The notes under the pieces are model-generated. The model was not told where the DNA came from. It saw nothing but the letters and a program-made list of their open reading frames with translations, and searched no databases. From a virus: DNA of 31,323 nt. The stretch is taken from the IMG/VR virus record IMGVR_UViG_3300044680_000105, positions 1 to 31,323 of that record; one strand, written 5' to 3'. A program made the position numbers and the translations under genes. Positions 1 to 31,093 of the stretch are shown piece after piece. Position 1 is the stretch's first letter. Each line of letters begins with the position of its first letter.

Positions 1-1976
1 CACGATGGCGAAGAAGTATTGATGCAATACTCGTTCGCAAGAAGTCCAGAAGTACCGGGCGTGCCAGCGTGAAGATAGGTCAGGTAAGAAGTTCCGTTCA
101 CTCCGCTACCAAGCACGTTTTCGACGCTCCATGTGTCCGACGCATAGGTCGGCCCGGAGGTCATCTCATACTCACCCGTAAACCATTGCGTGAGAGAATT
201 GGCGATTGCTGACGTGGTGGTGTTGATCAAATTCAGGCCATTGCCGGGCGTACTCGTATTCGTCCCGTAAGCGCCCTGGATATTTACGGTCCCGTCGGTT
301 CCGCCCCCGCTTCCGCTAGCACCACTAGACCCAAGTGTGATGGTAAGATTCCCAGCGCTTGCAGTTGTGGCGGAAGAATAAGATGCGCCGCCAGTGCCTG
401 TCGTGAAATTTATACTGCTGCCATTGCCACCCGAACCAACGCCGGTATAATTCGCGCCGTTTGGGCCGGTGACGGTCAAGATGCTGGGAGCGCTCGTTCC
501 CGCTATCGTCGGCGTAGTGCCCGCGAGTGTCAACCCGGGTGATGCCTGTGGATAGGTGAATGATCCTGCCCCGGTTGGTTGTGCAAGATGGCCCGTCTGA
601 GAATCGAATGGGATATTACCCCCGCCCCCGCCGCCCTCGGTCACTAGCCAATTGACATTGTCCGGAGAATTGAACTGTGCCCATCCCGCCGTCAGAGTGA
701 AGGTCGTCAGACCCGCCGTGGTTGTGCTCCCGGTGACAACCGTAAAAGTCGCGGTGCTGGTGTTGTTAACCGTTACCGTCCCCGCGCCGCTCCCGACGAC
801 GACCTTGAAAAAGAAATTGCCACCGCATCCGGAAGACGTCGGATCGGGAACTGTGAATGCCGTTCCGGAAACGTTCGTAAATTCGATGCTGGTTCCGCGG
901 TCGTTTGTGGTGGTCGTCGAATCGCAGAAAGCCGGCGCTGAACTCGGATAGGTCGACGCGGTAATCGTGCCCGGAGTCGAGCCTTCCGGCGTGCCGGGGA
1001 AGCCGGTAGACGCAGCGACAGGCGGACCGCCATTCACGTAAACCGGTTGCTGTCCCGTAACGTTCGAGCATACCGAGCCGCCGGAAATCGATGTGCTACT
1101 GGTCCAGTCCGTGAGGCAGTTTTGTGTCCCACTTCCAACCGAGGCCGTGACCGTCGCACAAGCCCAACCTGTCCCGCTTTCCTGCTCCACTTGACCGTTT
1201 GCGCAAGTGAGCATGGCGGGACGTCCGGTAGAGTCCTGCTGCAATCCGTCTCCCGCTCCATAATCGAGAATCAGAGGACCGGTGCCGGTGCCGAGCGGAA
1301 ATTCGAAATTTTGCGACGGCGCCGTAGAATTAGGAATCAGGCATTGGGTATTCCCGGCAGCATTCGGCAAGCACCAGCCACCGAGGGCCGTAGCCGAGCC
1401 GATAAAGGCAGCGGCAAAGGTCTGCCCTGCATTGGTGAAACTAGGATTAAAGGTCCAGGTGGTGTAACCTGTTCCGTTGTTCACGCCGCTGAAAACCGCA
1501 ACTTGTCCGGCAACGCCCGTAAAAGTGCTTTCCCCTCCTCCTCCGCCGCCGCCAGTGCCGTTCGAGATGGTATACGGGCCGTAGGTTCCGTAAAGCGTGG
1601 TCACGAAGTAGTCCACGGTGCCGCCCGCATACCAGAAGCCAATATTTGCCGTGGTGCCCGCCGATGCCGTGCAGGTGTTTCCCGGCAGTTGCACAAGCTG
1701 CGTGTTTGACGCGCAAGAGGTATTTTCCGTGACGTCCGTGTAGGTCGTAATCGGCGTACTAAGACAATTTGTCAGAGTATTTACTGCGGGAGGAGCGACG
1801 TTGGCGCAGAGGGCCACTGTGGCATTCGCTACCCAGAGCGCTTCCGGAAGGGGCTGGCCGCTCACTGGGACATTCGGCCCGCTGGTCAAGAGCGGCTGAT
1901 CGACGCGCACGGCTTGGCCGAAGGCGGATGAGTAAAGAATTGCGAGGGCGAACGAAATGACAATTGACTTTTTCAT
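1..1976 (-). CDS. Secreted/fibre-like surface protein, C-terminus beyond window
   Basis: The frame is open without a stop from the ATG at 1976 to the window edge (658 codons plus two bases), so the C-terminus is missing. The N-terminus (MKKSIVISFALAILYSSAFGQ) is a classic signal peptide: two Lys, a hydrophobic core and a small-x-small site (AFG) followed by Gln. The mature part is rich in Gly, Thr, Ser and Asn, with Gly runs near residues 145 and 450, scattered Cys, and repeated short beta-type stretches, as in tail fibres or adhesins. It is the last gene seen in the late block, after two ejection-like proteins, where fibre genes often lie. No Shine-Dalgarno is visible before the ATG. The fibre role is inferred from composition and position; a phage-encoded secreted protein is the alternative. 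Confidence 0.75.
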   Translation of the reverse strand, partial: MKKSIVISFALAILYSSAFGQAVRVDQPLLTSGPNVPVSGQPLPEALWVANATVALCANVAPPAVNTLTNCLSTPITTYTDVTENTSCASNTQLVQLPGNTCTASAGTTANIGFWYAGGTVDYFVTTLYGTYGPYTISNGTGGGGGGGESTFTGVAGQVAVFSGVNNGTGYTTWTFNPSFTNAGQTFAAAFIGSATALGGWCLPNAAGNTQCLIPNSTAPSQNFEFPLGTGTGPLILDYGAGDGLQQDSTGRPAMLTCANGQVEQESGTGWACATVTASVGSGTQNCLTDWTSSTSISGGSVCSNVTGQQPVYVNGGPPVAASTGFPGTPEGSTPGTITASTYPSSAPAFCDSTTTTNDRGTSIEFTNVSGTAFTVPDPTSSGCGGNFFFKVVVGSGAGTVTVNNTSTATFTVVTGSTTTAGLTTFTLTAGWAQFNSPDNVNWLVTEGGGGGGNIPFDSQTGHLAQPTGAGSFTYPQASPGLTLAGTTPTIAGTSAPSILTVTGPNGANYTGVGSGGNGSSINFTTGTGGASYSSATTASAGNLTITLGSSGASGSGGGTDGTVNIQGAYGTNTSTPGNGLNLINTTTSAIANSLTQWFTGEYEMTSGPTYASDTWSVENVLGSGVNGTSYLTYLHAGTPGTSGLLANEYCINTSSPS

Positions 1977-2000
1977 GGGAGGCACTATGATGTGGGAGTC

Positions 2001-2141
2001 ATGTTAGATGTGTTTTACGATCTCTGTATTCTTTGCGCACTCGTCTACGGCCTCAACGCTATGGTTGAGTGGTACGATCATCGGCAAGCCGAGAAATACC
2101 GCCGAGCGTCCCGATTGAAGCACCCATCCCTGGACGACTAA
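2001..2141 (+). CDS. Possible 46-aa membrane protein, opposite strand
   Basis: A 46-codon frame (starts MLDVFYDLCILCALVYGLNA) gives a short hydrophobic N-terminal segment, then a charged, basic tail (residues 24-41), the usual shape of a small single-pass phage membrane protein. A GGGAG motif lies only 2 nt before the ATG. A better-spaced GGAGG precedes an ATG at 1986 that opens a six-codon frame overlapping this start. The gene points against the surrounding late genes, fills the gap between two of them and overlaps the 3' end of the ejection-like gene by 83 nt in antisense. It could be chance; comparison across relatives would decide. Confidence 0.3.
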   Translation: MLDVFYDLCILCALVYGLNAMVEWYDHRQAEKYRRASRLKHPSLDD

Positions 2142-3309
2142 TAGTTTTCCCTGTTGCCTGAAGTGCAATCGCCAATCGTGATTTCACTGCCGGATTCCGC
2201 AGTGCCGCTTTCAATAAGCCTGCTCCGATGCCTAACCCGGAGCTTCCAGTTGCCATCTTTGTGACCCCATATGCGATTGGAGCGCCGAGCGTAAGCGGAT
2301 CTTTGTTCGCAGATCGCGTGACTGCCTTCTCCAGCGCATCGCTCAAGTCGATCAGCCGAGAATCTTTAGCGTTCAGGACTTTAAGTTCCGGATACTGATC
2401 GACCAACTCTTCCTTTAATCCACGCGCTAGAGCTTTTTGCGATTCAATTGAAGCGCCTTTCAACTCACCATAAGGTTTGTTGCCAAGCGTCCGGTAAGTT
2501 CCCTGCTTGAGCGCTTGAGCTTCAGGACCGGGGATTTGCCCAGGTTGATTTCTAAAAAACTCATTGCCACTTTCGCCGATGGCGTTCAAATCGGACTCAG
2601 GGTTGACCTGCGTTCCGAATTTCTTGGCCGTATCGCCGAGCCGAGAAGCAACCTTGAACTTGTTGACGGTTCGTAACGGAGCTTGCGCAATAGTGTCAGA
2701 AATCGCGGTATCTGTCGCCTCACGCGCGTTGCCGAGCTTCACCATTCCCGCTTCACTAACTGGAATCTTTTCCGTAAGTCCGGTATCAACCATTCGCGCC
2801 ACTCGGGGAGCGCCGAGCGTAGTAGATGGTTTCAGTGCGCTTTGATAGAGGCGCGGCGCCGCAGCTTTAGTCGCTGCGCCAACTCCACGCGCCAATCCTT
2901 CCGTTGCGAGCGCTACTCCTGCCTGCCCAACTCCCTGTCCTGCTGTTTCCTGTGCAACTTTTGCGTAAGCTCCAAACGGATCAGGCGATTGATTGATGTC
3001 GTTGATTGCCGCCGGGACTTGCGTGGCCTGCTTGCCGAGTGACGCAATACCACGACCGATGCGCGCAATGGGAGTTTGTGTAAGAAGGTTCTCGCCGGGT
3101 TGCCGAACAGGGTTGAATGTTTCGCCGACTGCTTTAGCTGCCCCGCGTATGCCTCGCCCAATACTCTGCACTCCGGAGAGAGTCGCGTTGCCATAGGAAG
3201 TCAGTGGAATTTCTTTGTCGAGAAAACCGGGCTGTTCTTTTGGGTTTTCTTCGACCGGCTTCCACGCGGAAATGTTCTCGTCGACAGGCTTCCATGGTGA
3301 GGCTGCCAT
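2059..3309 (-). CDS. Putative internal virion / DNA ejection protein
   Basis: The product has 416 aa from the ATG at 3309, which shares one base with the TAA of the upstream gene (TAATG) and has AGGCGG 4 nt upstream. The N-terminus carries a short tandem motif, WKPVDEN then WKPVEEN (about residues 6-22). The rest is Ala/Gly-rich and largely helical, with glycine-rich hydrophobic stretches near residues 125-150 and 345-370 that could interact with membrane. This composition and the place after the hub-like genes match internal virion proteins ejected with DNA by short-tailed phages. No catalytic motif was recognised. The function is inferred from position and composition. Confidence 0.7.
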   Translation of the reverse strand: MAASPWKPVDENISAWKPVEENPKEQPGFLDKEIPLTSYGNATLSGVQSIGRGIRGAAKAVGETFNPVRQPGENLLTQTPIARIGRGIASLGKQATQVPAAINDINQSPDPFGAYAKVAQETAGQGVGQAGVALATEGLARGVGAATKAAAPRLYQSALKPSTTLGAPRVARMVDTGLTEKIPVSEAGMVKLGNAREATDTAISDTIAQAPLRTVNKFKVASRLGDTAKKFGTQVNPESDLNAIGESGNEFFRNQPGQIPGPEAQALKQGTYRTLGNKPYGELKGASIESQKALARGLKEELVDQYPELKVLNAKDSRLIDLSDALEKAVTRSANKDPLTLGAPIAYGVTKMATGSSGLGIGAGLLKAALRNPAVKSRLAIALQATGKTISRPGMGASIGTLGGISRLADDRTTQP

Positions 3310-4904
3310 TATTCCGCCTTCCACCCAGCAGGCAACGATGTGCCCTTGGGAGCCTCGTGGAGTTTGCCTTGCGGATCGCGGGCACGAATCATTCCGCCGC
3401 CGCCTTCCATTGCTGTCTCTGCATCAATCCCGTCCAACTTTTTGCGGGCGTCGGCGACAATCTGCCGATGTTCTTTCGGGTCTTCGCTGGAGAGTAGCGA
3501 CTCTTCCGCGTCATCCATGATCTTCTGTTTAGCGACAAGTTTCGATTGCACGGTTTGGACGAGCGCGCGGATTTGTTTGTCCTGGTCGGCGGTGATGCTG
3601 CGCGCCTTGTCGGGATCGGTTGCCCAGTGCTGAATGTTGGCTTTCAGGGTTTCCCAAGCGGACCGCCCGCCAACGATACGCGAGATTTCCGCCTCGTTCA
3701 TACGCAAGCCGGAACCTGCGCCGCCAGACATAATGGAAAGCAGTTCCGGCGCGACCAGGGCATCGGCTTGCGGACTGTGCTGATCGAGGGTGTCATTCAG
3801 CCGTCCAACTCGCTGCTGAATGGCTTCGATTGGCTGACGTACTTTGTCGAGGCGACCGCTTTGCAACTGGTAACTCTTGTCGCCGCGCGCCGTGCCTTGC
3901 GTTCCCGCTCCGAGATCGATCTTCACGCCCGCCTGCGTTTTCCCGGTCGCATTGTTGAGCTGGGTTTCGAGTTCCTTCGCTTCCGCGTCGGTCATCCCAG
4001 GCTTGAAGACGCCATCGGGAAGTTTGTTTTTTGTGAGTAGCGGATCCCAGATCGCGTTGCGCTGTGTCGCTTGTTCGGCGGTGAGTGGCTGAGTTTTGTC
4101 CGGCTTCACGTCTTGCGCCGACTGTTTCACTTTTGTGTAAGCGTCGAGGTACGTGTAGGGCTGATTGGTGTCGGGATTCAGGCGCGGCTGGCCGTTCTCG
4201 CCGGCCATCAGATCGTGAATTGTGGTCTCTTCCGGAGTTGCACCTACTTTCGGATGCTTCAGTGCTTCCGTTTCCGCTTCAGTGTGCGCGATCGCGGCGG
4301 GGATCTCTCCGGTTTCGGCCTGTTCGTGCGCCGTCATTGCTTCCCGTTGCGCGTTCGCTTCATCCGCCCCGACTTGCTTCCCTGCCTGATTCAGTAGGGC
4401 CCGGTGGTGGTACTCCGTGCCCGGTGTGTTGATGGCAAGTGCCGGGGCCACCGCCGAGGCTGCAGTATCTGTAAGCCGGGCCGGAATCTCCGCACCCCAG
4501 CCCAGAACTTTGCCGAGGGTCGGGTGATTCTGGCCAAAGTCGGAGTTTTCAATCTTCGAGTGAATTTGCGAGATGCCGGAACCGGTGTCTTTCAGGTGTG
4601 CCAGCTTATTCTTGTCGTAGTCCATAGTTCCCGCCGGGGCGCTTGCCTTTAGACTGGGCGGCATAGGTTTCGAGGCTGGTAAAGTTGGCATCGGCCCCAG
4701 GGGTGCCACTTCTGACGGGTTAGGGGCTGCTGGTGACGCCCCGAGCGCAGGAATGGGCTGTTGAGGTGGCTTAATGGGAGCGAGCGCAGCAGGAATAGCC
4801 GGAGCCGCCGGAGCACCCCCTGCCATGGCCTTATGCGCCTGGGCGAGCGCGGCTTGGGCCTCAGGGGATAGACCGGCGATTTCGTCAAGAATGGGGTTGT
4901 TCAT
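3309..4904 (-). CDS. Putative internal virion protein, Pro/Ala-rich N-terminus
   Basis: The product has 531 aa. It starts at the ATG 3 nt after the stop of the preceding gene, with a weak GGTGG 7 nt upstream. Residues 25-95 form a low-complexity Pro/Ala linker; the remainder is hydrophilic and mostly helical, with coiled-coil-like stretches around residues 185-215 and 405-500 (repeated Glu/Lys/Gln heptad-like spacing). The C-terminus ends in a short Gly/Pro motif (APKGTSLPAGWKAE) often seen in phage virion proteins. It is coupled by TAATG to the next ejection-like gene. A second ejection protein or a structural chaperone is likely; no enzyme motif was seen. Confidence 0.7.
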   Translation of the reverse strand: MNNPILDEIAGLSPEAQAALAQAHKAMAGGAPAAPAIPAALAPIKPPQQPIPALGASPAAPNPSEVAPLGPMPTLPASKPMPPSLKASAPAGTMDYDKNKLAHLKDTGSGISQIHSKIENSDFGQNHPTLGKVLGWGAEIPARLTDTAASAVAPALAINTPGTEYHHRALLNQAGKQVGADEANAQREAMTAHEQAETGEIPAAIAHTEAETEALKHPKVGATPEETTIHDLMAGENGQPRLNPDTNQPYTYLDAYTKVKQSAQDVKPDKTQPLTAEQATQRNAIWDPLLTKNKLPDGVFKPGMTDAEAKELETQLNNATGKTQAGVKIDLGAGTQGTARGDKSYQLQSGRLDKVRQPIEAIQQRVGRLNDTLDQHSPQADALVAPELLSIMSGGAGSGLRMNEAEISRIVGGRSAWETLKANIQHWATDPDKARSITADQDKQIRALVQTVQSKLVAKQKIMDDAEESLLSSEDPKEHRQIVADARKKLDGIDAETAMEGGGGMIRARDPQGKLHEAPKGTSLPAGWKAE

Positions 4905-28805: not shown

Positions 28806-28810
28806 ACAAG

Positions 28811-28867
28811 CCAAAAGCCCACACCTCAACCGTGCGCGGTGATGCCCAACTCACCGCGCACATCGAC
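28811..28867 (+). repeat. 57-bp imperfect direct repeat, left copy
   Basis: It matches 31037-31093 at 50 of 57 positions, with a perfect 20-base core from GTGCGCGGTGATG to CCCAACTC. It encodes the RGDAQLTAHID region of the interrupted gene. Confidence 0.8.
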
Positions 28868-28991: not shown

Positions 28992-28999
28992 TAATTTAT
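28992..28999. repeat. Target-site duplication, left
   Basis: TAATTTAT sits directly outside the left inverted repeat; the same 8 bases follow the right end at 30950-30957. Eight bp is the expected duplication for IS1595-family elements. Confidence 0.9.
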
Positions 29000-29022
29000 G
29001 GGAACTATATACTTAATTCCCT
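29000..29022 (+). repeat. Left terminal inverted repeat
   Basis: It begins GGGAACTATATACTTAAT and ends TCCCT. It matches the reverse complement of 30927-30949 at 22 of 23 bases. The -35 of the internal promoter begins at its inner edge. Confidence 0.92.
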
Positions 29023-29050
29023 TGACAAGTGCGCGGGAGTCAAGTACTAT
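29022..29050 (+). promoter_or_regulatory. Element promoter
   Basis: TTGACA (29022-29027), a 17-nt spacer and TACTAT (29045-29050) form a near-consensus sigma70 promoter just inside the left end, ~25 nt before the first passenger gene. It would drive all six genes and could read out through the right end into phage DNA. Confidence 0.75.
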
Positions 29051-29074
29051 ACGGACATGATGAATGGAGGCAAT

Positions 29075-29284
29075 ATGACAATTTCTATGTACACGGTTCC
29101 CCCGTATAGCGATTCTTTTAGTCCGTTTGTGACCTTGCAGGACGCCCACTTCAAAACCTTCGACGCAGCCGAAAGCCAGACCGCCCAACGTGCTCGCGGT
29201 CAGTATCTGCGCGGCCTTCGGATTCTCGAATCGGCATTTAAATACCTCCTAGAGCAGGGGGTTGCAGCCAATGAACAGCATTGA
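29075..29284 (+). CDS. IS passenger protein 1
   Basis: The product has 69 aa from the ATG at 29075 (GGAGG 4 nt upstream), in frame with the interrupted phage gene, so without this start it would be read as a chimera. The sequence MTISMYTVPPYSDSFSPFVT leads into a helix-rich C-terminal half (FDAAESQTAQRARGQYLRGL and onward). There are no Cys residues. It overlaps the next gene by 14 nt. It could regulate transposition; nothing in the sequence proves it. Confidence 0.65.
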   Translation: MTISMYTVPPYSDSFSPFVTLQDAHFKTFDAAESQTAQRARGQYLRGLRILESAFKYLLEQGVAANEQH

Positions 29285-29495
29285 GAGTGTTGAGCGTCTT
29301 AACAAACTGGTTCGTAGACTCAATCCTGAACAGTTCGTTACGGTTGACGTGGATAGCTTGGTACATCTTCTGGCCGCATGGAAAATGCTTGAAAATTTGC
29401 CGGAGTCAGTTAGGCGCGAGTATTCCATTGCCAGCGAGTTAGACGCGGACAAGTGGGACGCCGAATTTAGGGAGAAGTTTAGGGGTAGACTATGA
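29271..29495 (+). CDS. IS passenger protein 2
   Basis: The product has 74 aa from the ATG at 29271 (AGGGGG about 9 nt upstream); a TTG at 29262 is possible but too close to that site. It is helical, acidic/basic mixed (MNSIESVERLNKLVRRLNPE, then LVHLLAAWKMLENLPESVRR). The stop overlaps the transposase ATG as ATGA, so it should be made in step with the transposase. A regulatory partner is one inference; the family is unknown to me. Confidence 0.65.
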   Translation: MNSIESVERLNKLVRRLNPEQFVTVDVDSLVHLLAAWKMLENLPESVRREYSIASELDADKWDAEFREKFRGRL

Positions 29496-30415
29496 GCAAA
29501 AGCACGATTAGTACCTTCCAGCTTTTCGAGATGTTCCCGACTGCGGAATCTGCCCGGCTCTTTCTGGAATCCCGCATCTGGTCGGACGGCGTTACCTGCC
29601 CGTCCTGCAAGGCTAAAGAGAACATCACCACACGCAAGGGCGGTTTCTACCGATGCAACCCCTGCCAACTTGATTTCACGATCCGTACCGGCACGATCTT
29701 CGAGCGCAGTCACATTCCCTTGCATAAGTGGCTCTATGCGATGTACCTGCTCGTAACCGCTCGCAAGGGCATCTCCAGCCTGCAACTGGCGAAGGAGATT
29801 GGCGTCACTCAGAAGTCGGCATGGTTCATGCTGCATCGGCTGCGAGAGGCTTGCGGTGGGCCGAAACTGACGAAGCTCAAGGGCATCGTGGAACTGGATG
29901 AGTGCTTCATCGGCGGCAAAGAAGGCAACAAGCATGAGCACAAAAAGCTCAAGGCTGGACGGGGTAGCGTCGGCAAGATCGCCGTACTCGGAATGCGGGA
30001 ACGTGGCACAGGTCGCACCTTGGCCGCTCCGATGCATGAGCGCAGCTTGCAGGAAGCTACACAGCGCATTCATGACAACATCGAACTCGGGACGCAACTG
30101 TACACAGACGAGCACCTGATCTTCACAGGATTGGACGGTCTGTTCTACAAGCACGATGCGGTCAATCATTCGGCTGGCGAGTATGCGGCTGGCCCTGCCC
30201 ACACGAACAGCATTGAGAGCGTCTGGGCCGTCCTGAAGCGCGGCTACTACGGCGTTTACCACAGCATGAGCGGCAAGCACCTTCGCCGCTATGTGGACGA
30301 GTTTACCTTCCGACTGAACGAAGGCAACGTCAAGCGGCACAGCCTTGAGCGCCTGGATTCGATGATCGAAGCGGTCAGCGGGAAGCGTCTGACCTATGCG
30401 GGGTTGACGGCATGA
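29492..30415 (+). CDS. IS1595-family transposase
   Basis: This is the DDE transposase that would cut and paste or copy the element; 307 aa, start coupled by ATGA. The N-terminal zinc ribbon has C36, C39, C55 and C58 (CPSC, CNPC). Next comes a helix-turn-helix-like region (LQLAKEIGVTQKSAWFMLHR) for end binding. The ISXO2-like catalytic domain has D136 in VELDECFIGG, D206 in YTDEHL, and E242 in HTNSIESVWAVLKRG as the likely third acidic residue, followed by the conserved Y-H pair (YGVYH). Length (~300 aa) is normal and no frameshift is present, so it looks functional. The stop overlaps the next gene as ATGA. Confidence 0.93.
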   Translation: MSKSTISTFQLFEMFPTAESARLFLESRIWSDGVTCPSCKAKENITTRKGGFYRCNPCQLDFTIRTGTIFERSHIPLHKWLYAMYLLVTARKGISSLQLAKEIGVTQKSAWFMLHRLREACGGPKLTKLKGIVELDECFIGGKEGNKHEHKKLKAGRGSVGKIAVLGMRERGTGRTLAAPMHERSLQEATQRIHDNIELGTQLYTDEHLIFTGLDGLFYKHDAVNHSAGEYAAGPAHTNSIESVWAVLKRGYYGVYHSMSGKHLRRYVDEFTFRLNEGNVKRHSLERLDSMIEAVSGKRLTYAGLTA

Positions 30416-30567
30416 AGCGCGAATATATCCCCGAATGTGCCGATTGTCGGAACGAAAAAAGCGCACGCAAAAAGCTGGAAGCTGTAACGGACGTGGTACT
30501 GGCCTATCGGCCCAACTCGAAGCGCAAGAAGCCGCGCAAACGGAAGAAAACGAAGAGACGCTCATGA
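30412..30567 (+). CDS. IS passenger protein 3, basic with one Cys pair
   Basis: The product has 51 aa; the start is in the ATGA with the transposase stop and the end is in an ATGA with the next gene. It has a C-x2-C pair (PECADCRNEK), then a helix, then a very basic tail (PNSKRKKPRKRKKTKRRS), which suggests nucleic-acid binding. The perfect coupling on both sides argues it is real despite its size. Function unknown. Confidence 0.65.
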   Translation: MKREYIPECADCRNEKSARKKLEAVTDVVLAYRPNSKRKKPRKRKKTKRRS

Positions 30568-30722
30568 TCGTTTGCCCCGAGTGCGCAGGTGGACTGCACG
30601 AAATATGTATTCGGCAGGGTTGCTATTGTCCTTGCCAACTCCCTGAGGATACGCAAGAGCGCGAATGCATCCACGGCTGCGTCCGTTCGATGTGTGAGGA
30701 GTGCGAACAGGAGGAACAATGA
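30564..30722 (+). CDS. IS passenger protein 4, ten-Cys zinc protein
   Basis: The product has 52 aa from the ATG at 30564 (ATGA overlap); a longer frame upstream overlaps passenger 3 and is rejected. Ten Cys occur at residues 4, 7, 15, 20, 22, 24, 35, 39, 44 and 47 (CPEC, GCYCPC, CIHGC, CEEC), enough for two zinc sites. The tail is acidic (CEQEEQ), opposite in charge to passenger 3. An AGGAGG near its 3' end serves the next gene. No family was recognised. Confidence 0.65.
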   Translation: MIVCPECAGGLHEICIRQGCYCPCQLPEDTQERECIHGCVRSMCEECEQEEQ

Positions 30723-30913
30723 GCGACACGTGGATTACCCTCTCTAACTTATTCGACAATTTGCGTGGCTACCTGAAGCATCACTACGGCTGTGGAACTC
30801 ATTACGGGATACCTTGTGATTGTGGCCTCTTGGGGTATCAGTGCCACATGGAAGACACGATCCATCGTTTGGCCAAAGAGAACGCGGTTTCGATTACTTA
30901 CTCTGACGAATGA
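30719..30913 (+). CDS. IS passenger protein 5, Cys/His-rich
   Basis: The product has 64 aa from the ATG at 30719, with AGGAGG 4-5 nt upstream and an ATGA overlap. It has an N-terminal helix (WITLSNLFDNLRGYLKHHYG), then a CGTHYGIPCDCG stretch and a further C-H pair (YQCHMED), likely a single zinc site, and a short acidic end. It is the last gene before the right inverted repeat, 13 nt away. Function unknown. Confidence 0.65.
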   Translation: MSDTWITLSNLFDNLRGYLKHHYGCGTHYGIPCDCGLLGYQCHMEDTIHRLAKENAVSITYSDE

Positions 30914-30926
30914 TTTCATTAGAGTT

Positions 30927-30949
30927 AGGGAGTTAAGTATATAGTTCCC
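30927..30949 (-). repeat. Right terminal inverted repeat
   Basis: Its reverse complement begins GGGAACTATATACTTAAC and ends TCCCT; the single difference from the left repeat is at position 18 (C for T). Confidence 0.92.
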
Positions 30950-30957
30950 TAATTTAT
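30950..30957. repeat. Target-site duplication, right
   Basis: TAATTTAT is identical to 28992-28999. Phage sequence of the interrupted gene resumes at 30958. Confidence 0.9.
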
Positions 30958-31036
30958 TACGAAGGGCCAACAGGGGACGAAAGTCAGCGCCGACTTCGCG
31001 AAGCTGGCCTACTCGAAACTGAGAAACCATAATGCG

Positions 31037-31093
31037 CCAGAAGCCCACACTCAAATTGTGCGCGGTGATGCCCAACTCTCCGCGCACATCGAC
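31037..31093 (+). repeat. 57-bp imperfect direct repeat, right copy
   Basis: It matches 28811-28867 at 50 of 57 positions. Read in the corresponding plus frame it gives HTQIVRGDAQLSAHID, close to HTSTVRGDAQLTAHID of the interrupted gene, but 2 nt instead of 6 separate an ATG-like start from the match, so that frame is shifted. It lies 5 nt after the interrupted gene's stop and probably marks a partial gene duplication. Confidence 0.75.

Follow-up and report, generated by a model that had tools for sequence, protein, structure and literature searches.

An IS1595-family element in viral DNA with a small basic companion gene and cargo that appears to change from copy to copy

Are the small genes packed around a transposase gene in phage DNA partners of the transposase, or are they passengers? 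This question is raised by a six-gene operon in IMG/VR virus record IMGVR_UViG_3300044680_000105 (positions 1 to 31,323; the whole stretch of 31,323 nucleotides that we analyzed is referred to as the window). A sequence-only reading had described five small ORFs flanking the transposase gene tnp (o1 and o2 upstream, o3, o4 and o5 downstream, encoding proteins 1 to 5), and had proposed that they act together with the transposase or are its cargo.

Results

The operon is part of a complete IS1595-family element

The operon layout described earlier was borne out. All six ORFs are present, start/stop overlaps join every pair of neighbors (14 bp between o1 and o2, and ATGA, 4 bp, at o2/tnp, tnp/o3, o3/o4 and o4/o5), and a near-consensus sigma-70-type promoter, TTGACA-17-TACTAT with a score of 10/12, is found at 29022–29050 on the plus strand. 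The object in the window is, however, larger than the six-ORF operon first described, namely a complete 1,950-bp IS1595-family element at 29000–30949. Its left terminal inverted repeat (GGGAACTATATACTTAATTCCCT, 23 bp, 29000–29022, plus strand) matches the right one (23 bp, 30927–30949, minus strand) at 22 of 23 positions. These short IS1595-type ends are bordered on both sides by an 8-bp target-site duplication, TAATTTAT, whose copies at 28992–28999 and 30950–30957 are a perfect match. The element interrupts a phage gene (28802–31032, plus strand), and a 90-aa reading frame rejoins once the element and one copy of TAATTTAT are taken out. A degenerate-pattern search of viral contigs did not find an empty insertion site, which is therefore deduced from the duplication and the rejoined frame.

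The transposase gene (29492–30415, plus strand) has an open frame for a 307-aa protein, in which the ISXO2/IS1595 DDE domain (PF12762) is covered over its whole length (domain positions 1–153, E 7e-41) and an N-terminal zinc ribbon (PF12760) is matched above the curated cut-off (E 2e-6). Candidate catalytic residues lie in ELDE 134, YTDE 204 and NSIES 239. As tnp is open, the element does not fall among the mobile insertion cassettes (MICs), which have no transposase gene; it agrees with a transporter IS (tIS) in carrying passengers (o1, o2, o4 and o5) between its ends that are missing from close relatives with an intact transposase. Judged by its sequence, the element is autonomous and probably active.

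The promoter lies within a conserved left end, and a similar left end sits immediately before the transposase gene in the five closest relatives (L002, L003, L004, L082 and L083). Part of the terminal repeat recurs in inverted orientation (GGGAGTCAAGTA, 29035–29046, minus strand) and extends into the −10 box; such a copy occurs at the equivalent place (position 36) in 12 of 79 related elements. The GGGAGTCAAGTA repeat is a possible transposase-binding operator.

The phage around the element is a soil phage. Its genes in the window include one with a phage integrase domain and one with a weak terminase match, and a weakly Rad52-like gene and a Siphovirus Gp157 gene lie directly upstream of the insertion. 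Together with the origin in a virus record, these genes make a temperate phage the most likely host. A 58-nt direct repeat (88%) flanks the element on both sides (28810–28867 and 31036–31093); each copy surrounds a GTGCGCGGTGA/TCACCGCGCAC-type stem, and the repeat is a feature of the phage rather than of the element.

Relatives share a core and differ in cargo

A search with the transposase returned 80 viral and 47 bacterial loci, in which matched ends delimit 79 distinct elements shorter than 3.3 kb. Their lengths range from 1,423 to 3,186 bp, and 61 of the 79 have a perfect duplication. The duplications are AT-rich (83% versus 42% in the flanks), and 91 distinct ones among the relatives indicate insertions at many sites, which bears on transposition only indirectly. 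Collections of cultured phages and plasmids contained no transposase relative above 60% identity, only relatives below this value. Because the bacterial copies L083, L095 and L105 adjoin ordinary chromosomal genes, the family is not confined to phages.

The transposases of the five closest relatives are 90–96% identical to that of the window. Outside tnp, the match is limited to the left 48–61 bp with the promoter, sometimes the companion gene o3, and the right end; o1, o2, o4 and o5 are missing from all five. Homologous elements without the small ORFs had been named in advance as evidence against a common system, and for these four ORFs such elements exist. Recurrence of the passengers as a set beside other IS1595 transposases between matched ends had also been suggested as a check, and we did not see it; only o2 was found once more, within a different set. 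The passenger set was accordingly rejected as a recurring module, as close relatives lack it and the viral scans showed no recurrence, and the five small ORFs do not form one system, since the cargo o1, o2, o4 and o5 is separate from the companion o3. Both earlier alternatives therefore apply, each to different genes: protein 3 is a partner of the transposase, with relatives in 73 of the 79 delimited elements and in 17 of 17 autonomous elements of a second sample (among the matches listed), and proteins 1, 2, 4 and 5 are cargo.

Cargo turns over between elements to a large extent: among 172 predicted cargo ORFs there are 127 singletons, some of them surely spurious frames. Not one of the 79 elements is free of cargo, which is confined to the upstream side of the transposase gene in 32 and to its downstream side in 31, and flanks it in the other 16, that of the window among them. 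Recognized cargo in these elements includes DNA methylases (seven of C5 and two of N6/N4 type), one Mom and phosphoadenosine phosphosulfate reductases. The sequences show a constant part made up of the promoter-bearing left end, the transposase, the small basic companion and the right end, and a cargo that is exchanged between elements.

Two side observations concern insertions close to each other. One phage contig (IMGVR_UViG_3300048824_000144) carries two different autonomous elements with unrelated cargo, L009 and L015. In L003, an end-like sequence downstream of the element (4674–4700) is oriented as the reversed right end of another element, which suggests a nested insertion.

The cargo of the window element

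Protein 1 (69 aa, 29075–29284), protein 2 (74 aa, 29271–29495), protein 4 (52 aa, 30564–30722) and protein 5 (64 aa, 30719–30913), all encoded on the plus strand, are the cargo of this copy. Searches of viral contigs and cultured phages gave no convincing relative of proteins 1, 4 and 5; a short match of protein 5 in L130 (52% over 25 aa) was set aside as doubtful. Protein 2 has one homologue (78%) in a different element, L019, where it is fused to another ORF and likewise sits directly upstream of tnp. The differences between the two fall 14/7/43 on the three codon positions, and protein 2 is under purifying selection.

Protein 4 is acidic (pI 4.3) with ten Cys in 52 residues, as described before, and may bind metal. 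Of the zinc sites proposed for proteins 3, 4 and 5, the Cys-richness of proteins 4 and 5 stands; no family match backs a zinc fold, and the CxxC of protein 3, found elsewhere only in L003, lies outside the conserved companion core. An 18-nt near-identical repeat (29273–29290 and 30205–30222) links the start of protein 2 (MNSIESV) to the NSIES region of the transposase. The L019 homologue lacks a stretch of the MNSIESV type, and the repeat may therefore be a scar of the joining of this cargo.

A small basic protein accompanies the transposase

Protein 3 (51 aa, 30412–30567, plus strand) has the highly basic tail noted earlier, with 20 Lys/Arg in 51 residues and a pI of 10.7. Its predicted structure is one confident helix (residues 12–31) followed by a loose tail (mean pLDDT 79, pTM 0.38). 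Members of this family share the core L[DN]xI[AV]DxVLxYRPK, then a basic tail; 36 of them had no consistent match in Pfam, NCBIfam or PHROGs. Differences between companions are mostly at third codon positions and residues stay; relative to L003 they fall 3/3/20 on the three positions, and protein 3 is under purifying selection. Absence of such selection on the small ORFs had been proposed as an argument against the earlier reading; selection is seen for proteins 2 and 3.

A search of viral contigs with the companion only, using a single 55-aa member as query, gave 52 cases, in 43 of which the transposase gene lies immediately upstream. Some of the others (L145–147, L150, L157 and L178) are elements with ends and companion that lack the transposase; L156 is of the same kind with an imperfect duplication. 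In the transposase-less L150, L157 and L178 the last tnp codons apparently remain beside the companion. Of 297 Acidobacteriota genomes, only two matched a companion HMM, one of them weakly; the genomes examined mostly carry several other, more distant IS1595 transposases. In a sample collected by end sequence (see below), the companion is present in 17 of 17 autonomous elements and in 2 of the 18 that fully lack a transposase (Fisher p 4e-8, among the matches listed). By this pattern of co-occurrence, the protein 3 family is a constant partner of the transposase that had not been catalogued before. In L097 (4915–6204), a C5 DNA methyltransferase carries the companion motif as an in-frame N-terminal fusion.

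Cassettes without transposase often carry DNA-modification genes

Independently of the transposase, we searched viral contigs with one version of the end sequence and recovered at least 37 complete elements. Among the matches listed, 51 end matches were paired with an exact duplication, compared with none at each of ten control offsets, for which the flanks were shifted by 9–180 bp. Again among the matches listed, 17 of the at least 37 elements are autonomous, all with the companion, and 20, about half of the sample, are without a full transposase gene. Two of these 20 have a broken transposase, two keep the companion (one of them also a short transposase-like stretch) and sixteen contain cargo only; the transposase gene is thus entirely or nearly absent in 18 relatives (among the matches listed). 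A same-contig search found no transposase on the contigs, which may be fragments, that bear transposase-less elements.

The sixteen cargo-only elements among the matches listed span 285–1,155 bp and have perfect duplications despite lacking the companion. Ten of these sixteen listed elements encode a DNA methylase or Mom (six N6/N4, one Dam and one C5 methylase, and two Mom), and one encodes a PTPS/QueD-type protein. As a control, we annotated 148 ORFs taken at random from the flanks in the same viral loci, considering the first 25 families listed without the weak single matches beyond them; among the families listed, at least 2 of the 148 are C5 methylases. DNA modification in 10 of 16 cargo-only elements versus at least 2 of 148 flanking ORFs gives a Fisher p of 2e-10 (among the matches listed), to be read as a guide and not as an exact probability, since elements are compared with ORFs and two of the sixteen lie on one contig. 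Most of the small cargo of autonomous elements, that of the window included, has no family, so that DNA modification is no established rule for it.

The transposase-less element of L193 (1,155 bp, 1345–2500, reverse strand of the locus) combines the PTPS/QueD-type gene with an unclassified 215-aa gene, which suggests a mobile pathway of the 7-deazaguanine type. On contig IMGVR_UViG_3300012231_000054 (L242), two different transposase-less elements, one with Mom and one with an N6/N4 methylase, are found together.

Discussion

We are rather confident that the window holds an autonomous, cargo-bearing IS1595-family transposon in a phage, with a constant companion and swapped cargo, and that its family carries accessory genes, notably for DNA modification. 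The transposase would act at the 23-bp ends and insert the element into AT-rich 8-bp sites, and the partial inverted end at the −10 box may serve it as an operator. In many elements the genes of companion and transposase are coupled, and the companion protein, with a helix and a lysine/arginine tail, could bind DNA or the transposase and assist or regulate transposition. We infer that it does so in trans, since sixteen elements without it still have perfect duplications (among the matches listed). Transposase-less relatives, in which the same ends enclose one or two genes, would likewise be mobilized in trans. In phages the family would carry accessory genes, which in the transposase-less sample are mainly those of DNA methyltransferases and Mom-type modifiers. 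DNA methylases and Mom have known anti-restriction roles in phages, and on this basis such cargo plausibly protects phage DNA from host restriction.

How do other explanations compare? That all five small ORFs belong to a single co-adapted module, working with the transposase in target choice, immunity or regulation, is hardly credible any longer and largely refuted: the tight ATGA coupling, the single promoter and the purifying selection on proteins 2 and 3 would fit it, but relatives with 90–96% identical transposases do without o1, o2, o4 and o5, and viral scans were empty for o1 and o4, gave a single homologue of o2 within another set and, for o5, the doubtful match only. Neutral phage DNA, caught by chance and persisting only because the ends are spared, would account for cargo that is almost never common to two elements. 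It accounts poorly for the lack of any cargo-free element among the 79, the strong over-representation of DNA-modification enzymes in the cassettes (among the matches listed) and the purifying selection on protein 2, and we regard it as improbable.

For the companion, the conserved entity might be its DNA, for example an internal site or a translational signal, as the retention of the companion with seemingly the last tnp codons in three transposase-less elements could suggest. We find this very unlikely, as differences concentrate at third codon positions while residues are kept, the frame varies in position up to the methyltransferase fusion of L097, and sixteen companion-less elements have perfect duplications (among the matches listed). 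A role as helper of the host phage or cell, in DNA binding or counter-defence, by a protein that travels with the element without being a transposition factor has somewhat more to recommend it, given the few transposase-less elements that keep the companion along with cargo. It is nevertheless rather unlikely in our view: the companion tracks the transposase (17 of 17 versus 2 of 18, among the matches listed) while other cargo turns over, and its HMM is nearly absent from the Acidobacteriota genomes.

The best reading of the autonomous transposon and its relatives is a mobile gene-cassette family that appears common in uncultivated phages; one end-sequence pattern alone yielded at least 37 complete elements in viral contigs. 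Going further, uncultivated phages may share a transposition network in which the IS1595 transposase and its companion move one- and two-gene cassettes, many of them DNA-modifying, so that restriction evasion would spread as a transposable trait and the companion may direct or control the movement; we are evenly divided on this wider proposal. Phage gene exchange is mostly attributed to recombination. With their clear ends and duplications, cassettes of such a family would make gene flow between phages traceable gene by gene and would help to explain how DNA-modification genes arrive in unrelated phages. The companion would represent a small uncharacterized transposase partner that is directly testable.

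The tIS of the IS1595 family were reportedly introduced by Siguier, Gagnevin and Chandler in 2009. Cargo-bearing IS1595 elements and transposase-less cassettes are already known (PMC3129680, PMC7986276, PMC3913671). In the open literature that we searched, to a limited extent, we found no description of the companion family, of near-total cargo turnover or of phage cassettes for DNA modification on such ends. IS elements are regarded as uncommon in phages (PMC9600943). A survey of IS in temperate phages, which likewise links them to gene flow and considers them rare in phages, contains in its consulted part no phage-enriched cargo lineage with a companion (PMC8136500). Integron gene cassettes, as far as the consulted part of the source describes them, resemble our elements as single accessory genes moving between phages; those cassettes use attC sites and the integron integrase, whereas the inverted ends and target duplications seen here are typical of a DDE transposase (PMC9892861). 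MICs, such as the qnrD MIC (PMC3913671) and MIC231 (cited in PMC3129680), are like our transposase-less elements in having IS ends and passenger genes; in contrast to them, the window element is autonomous, and the cassettes described here reside in phages and mostly encode DNA-modification enzymes (among the matches listed). The tIS, an IS1595-family IS with passenger genes unrelated to transposition (PMC3129680, PMC7986276), shares the DDE transposase with zinc ribbon, the short inverted ends, the 8-bp duplication and the unrelated passengers between the ends. In contrast to the tIS, the elements described here have a companion gene in their constant core, carry cargo that turns over between close copies and is absent in none of 79 elements, and are abundant in uncultivated phages.
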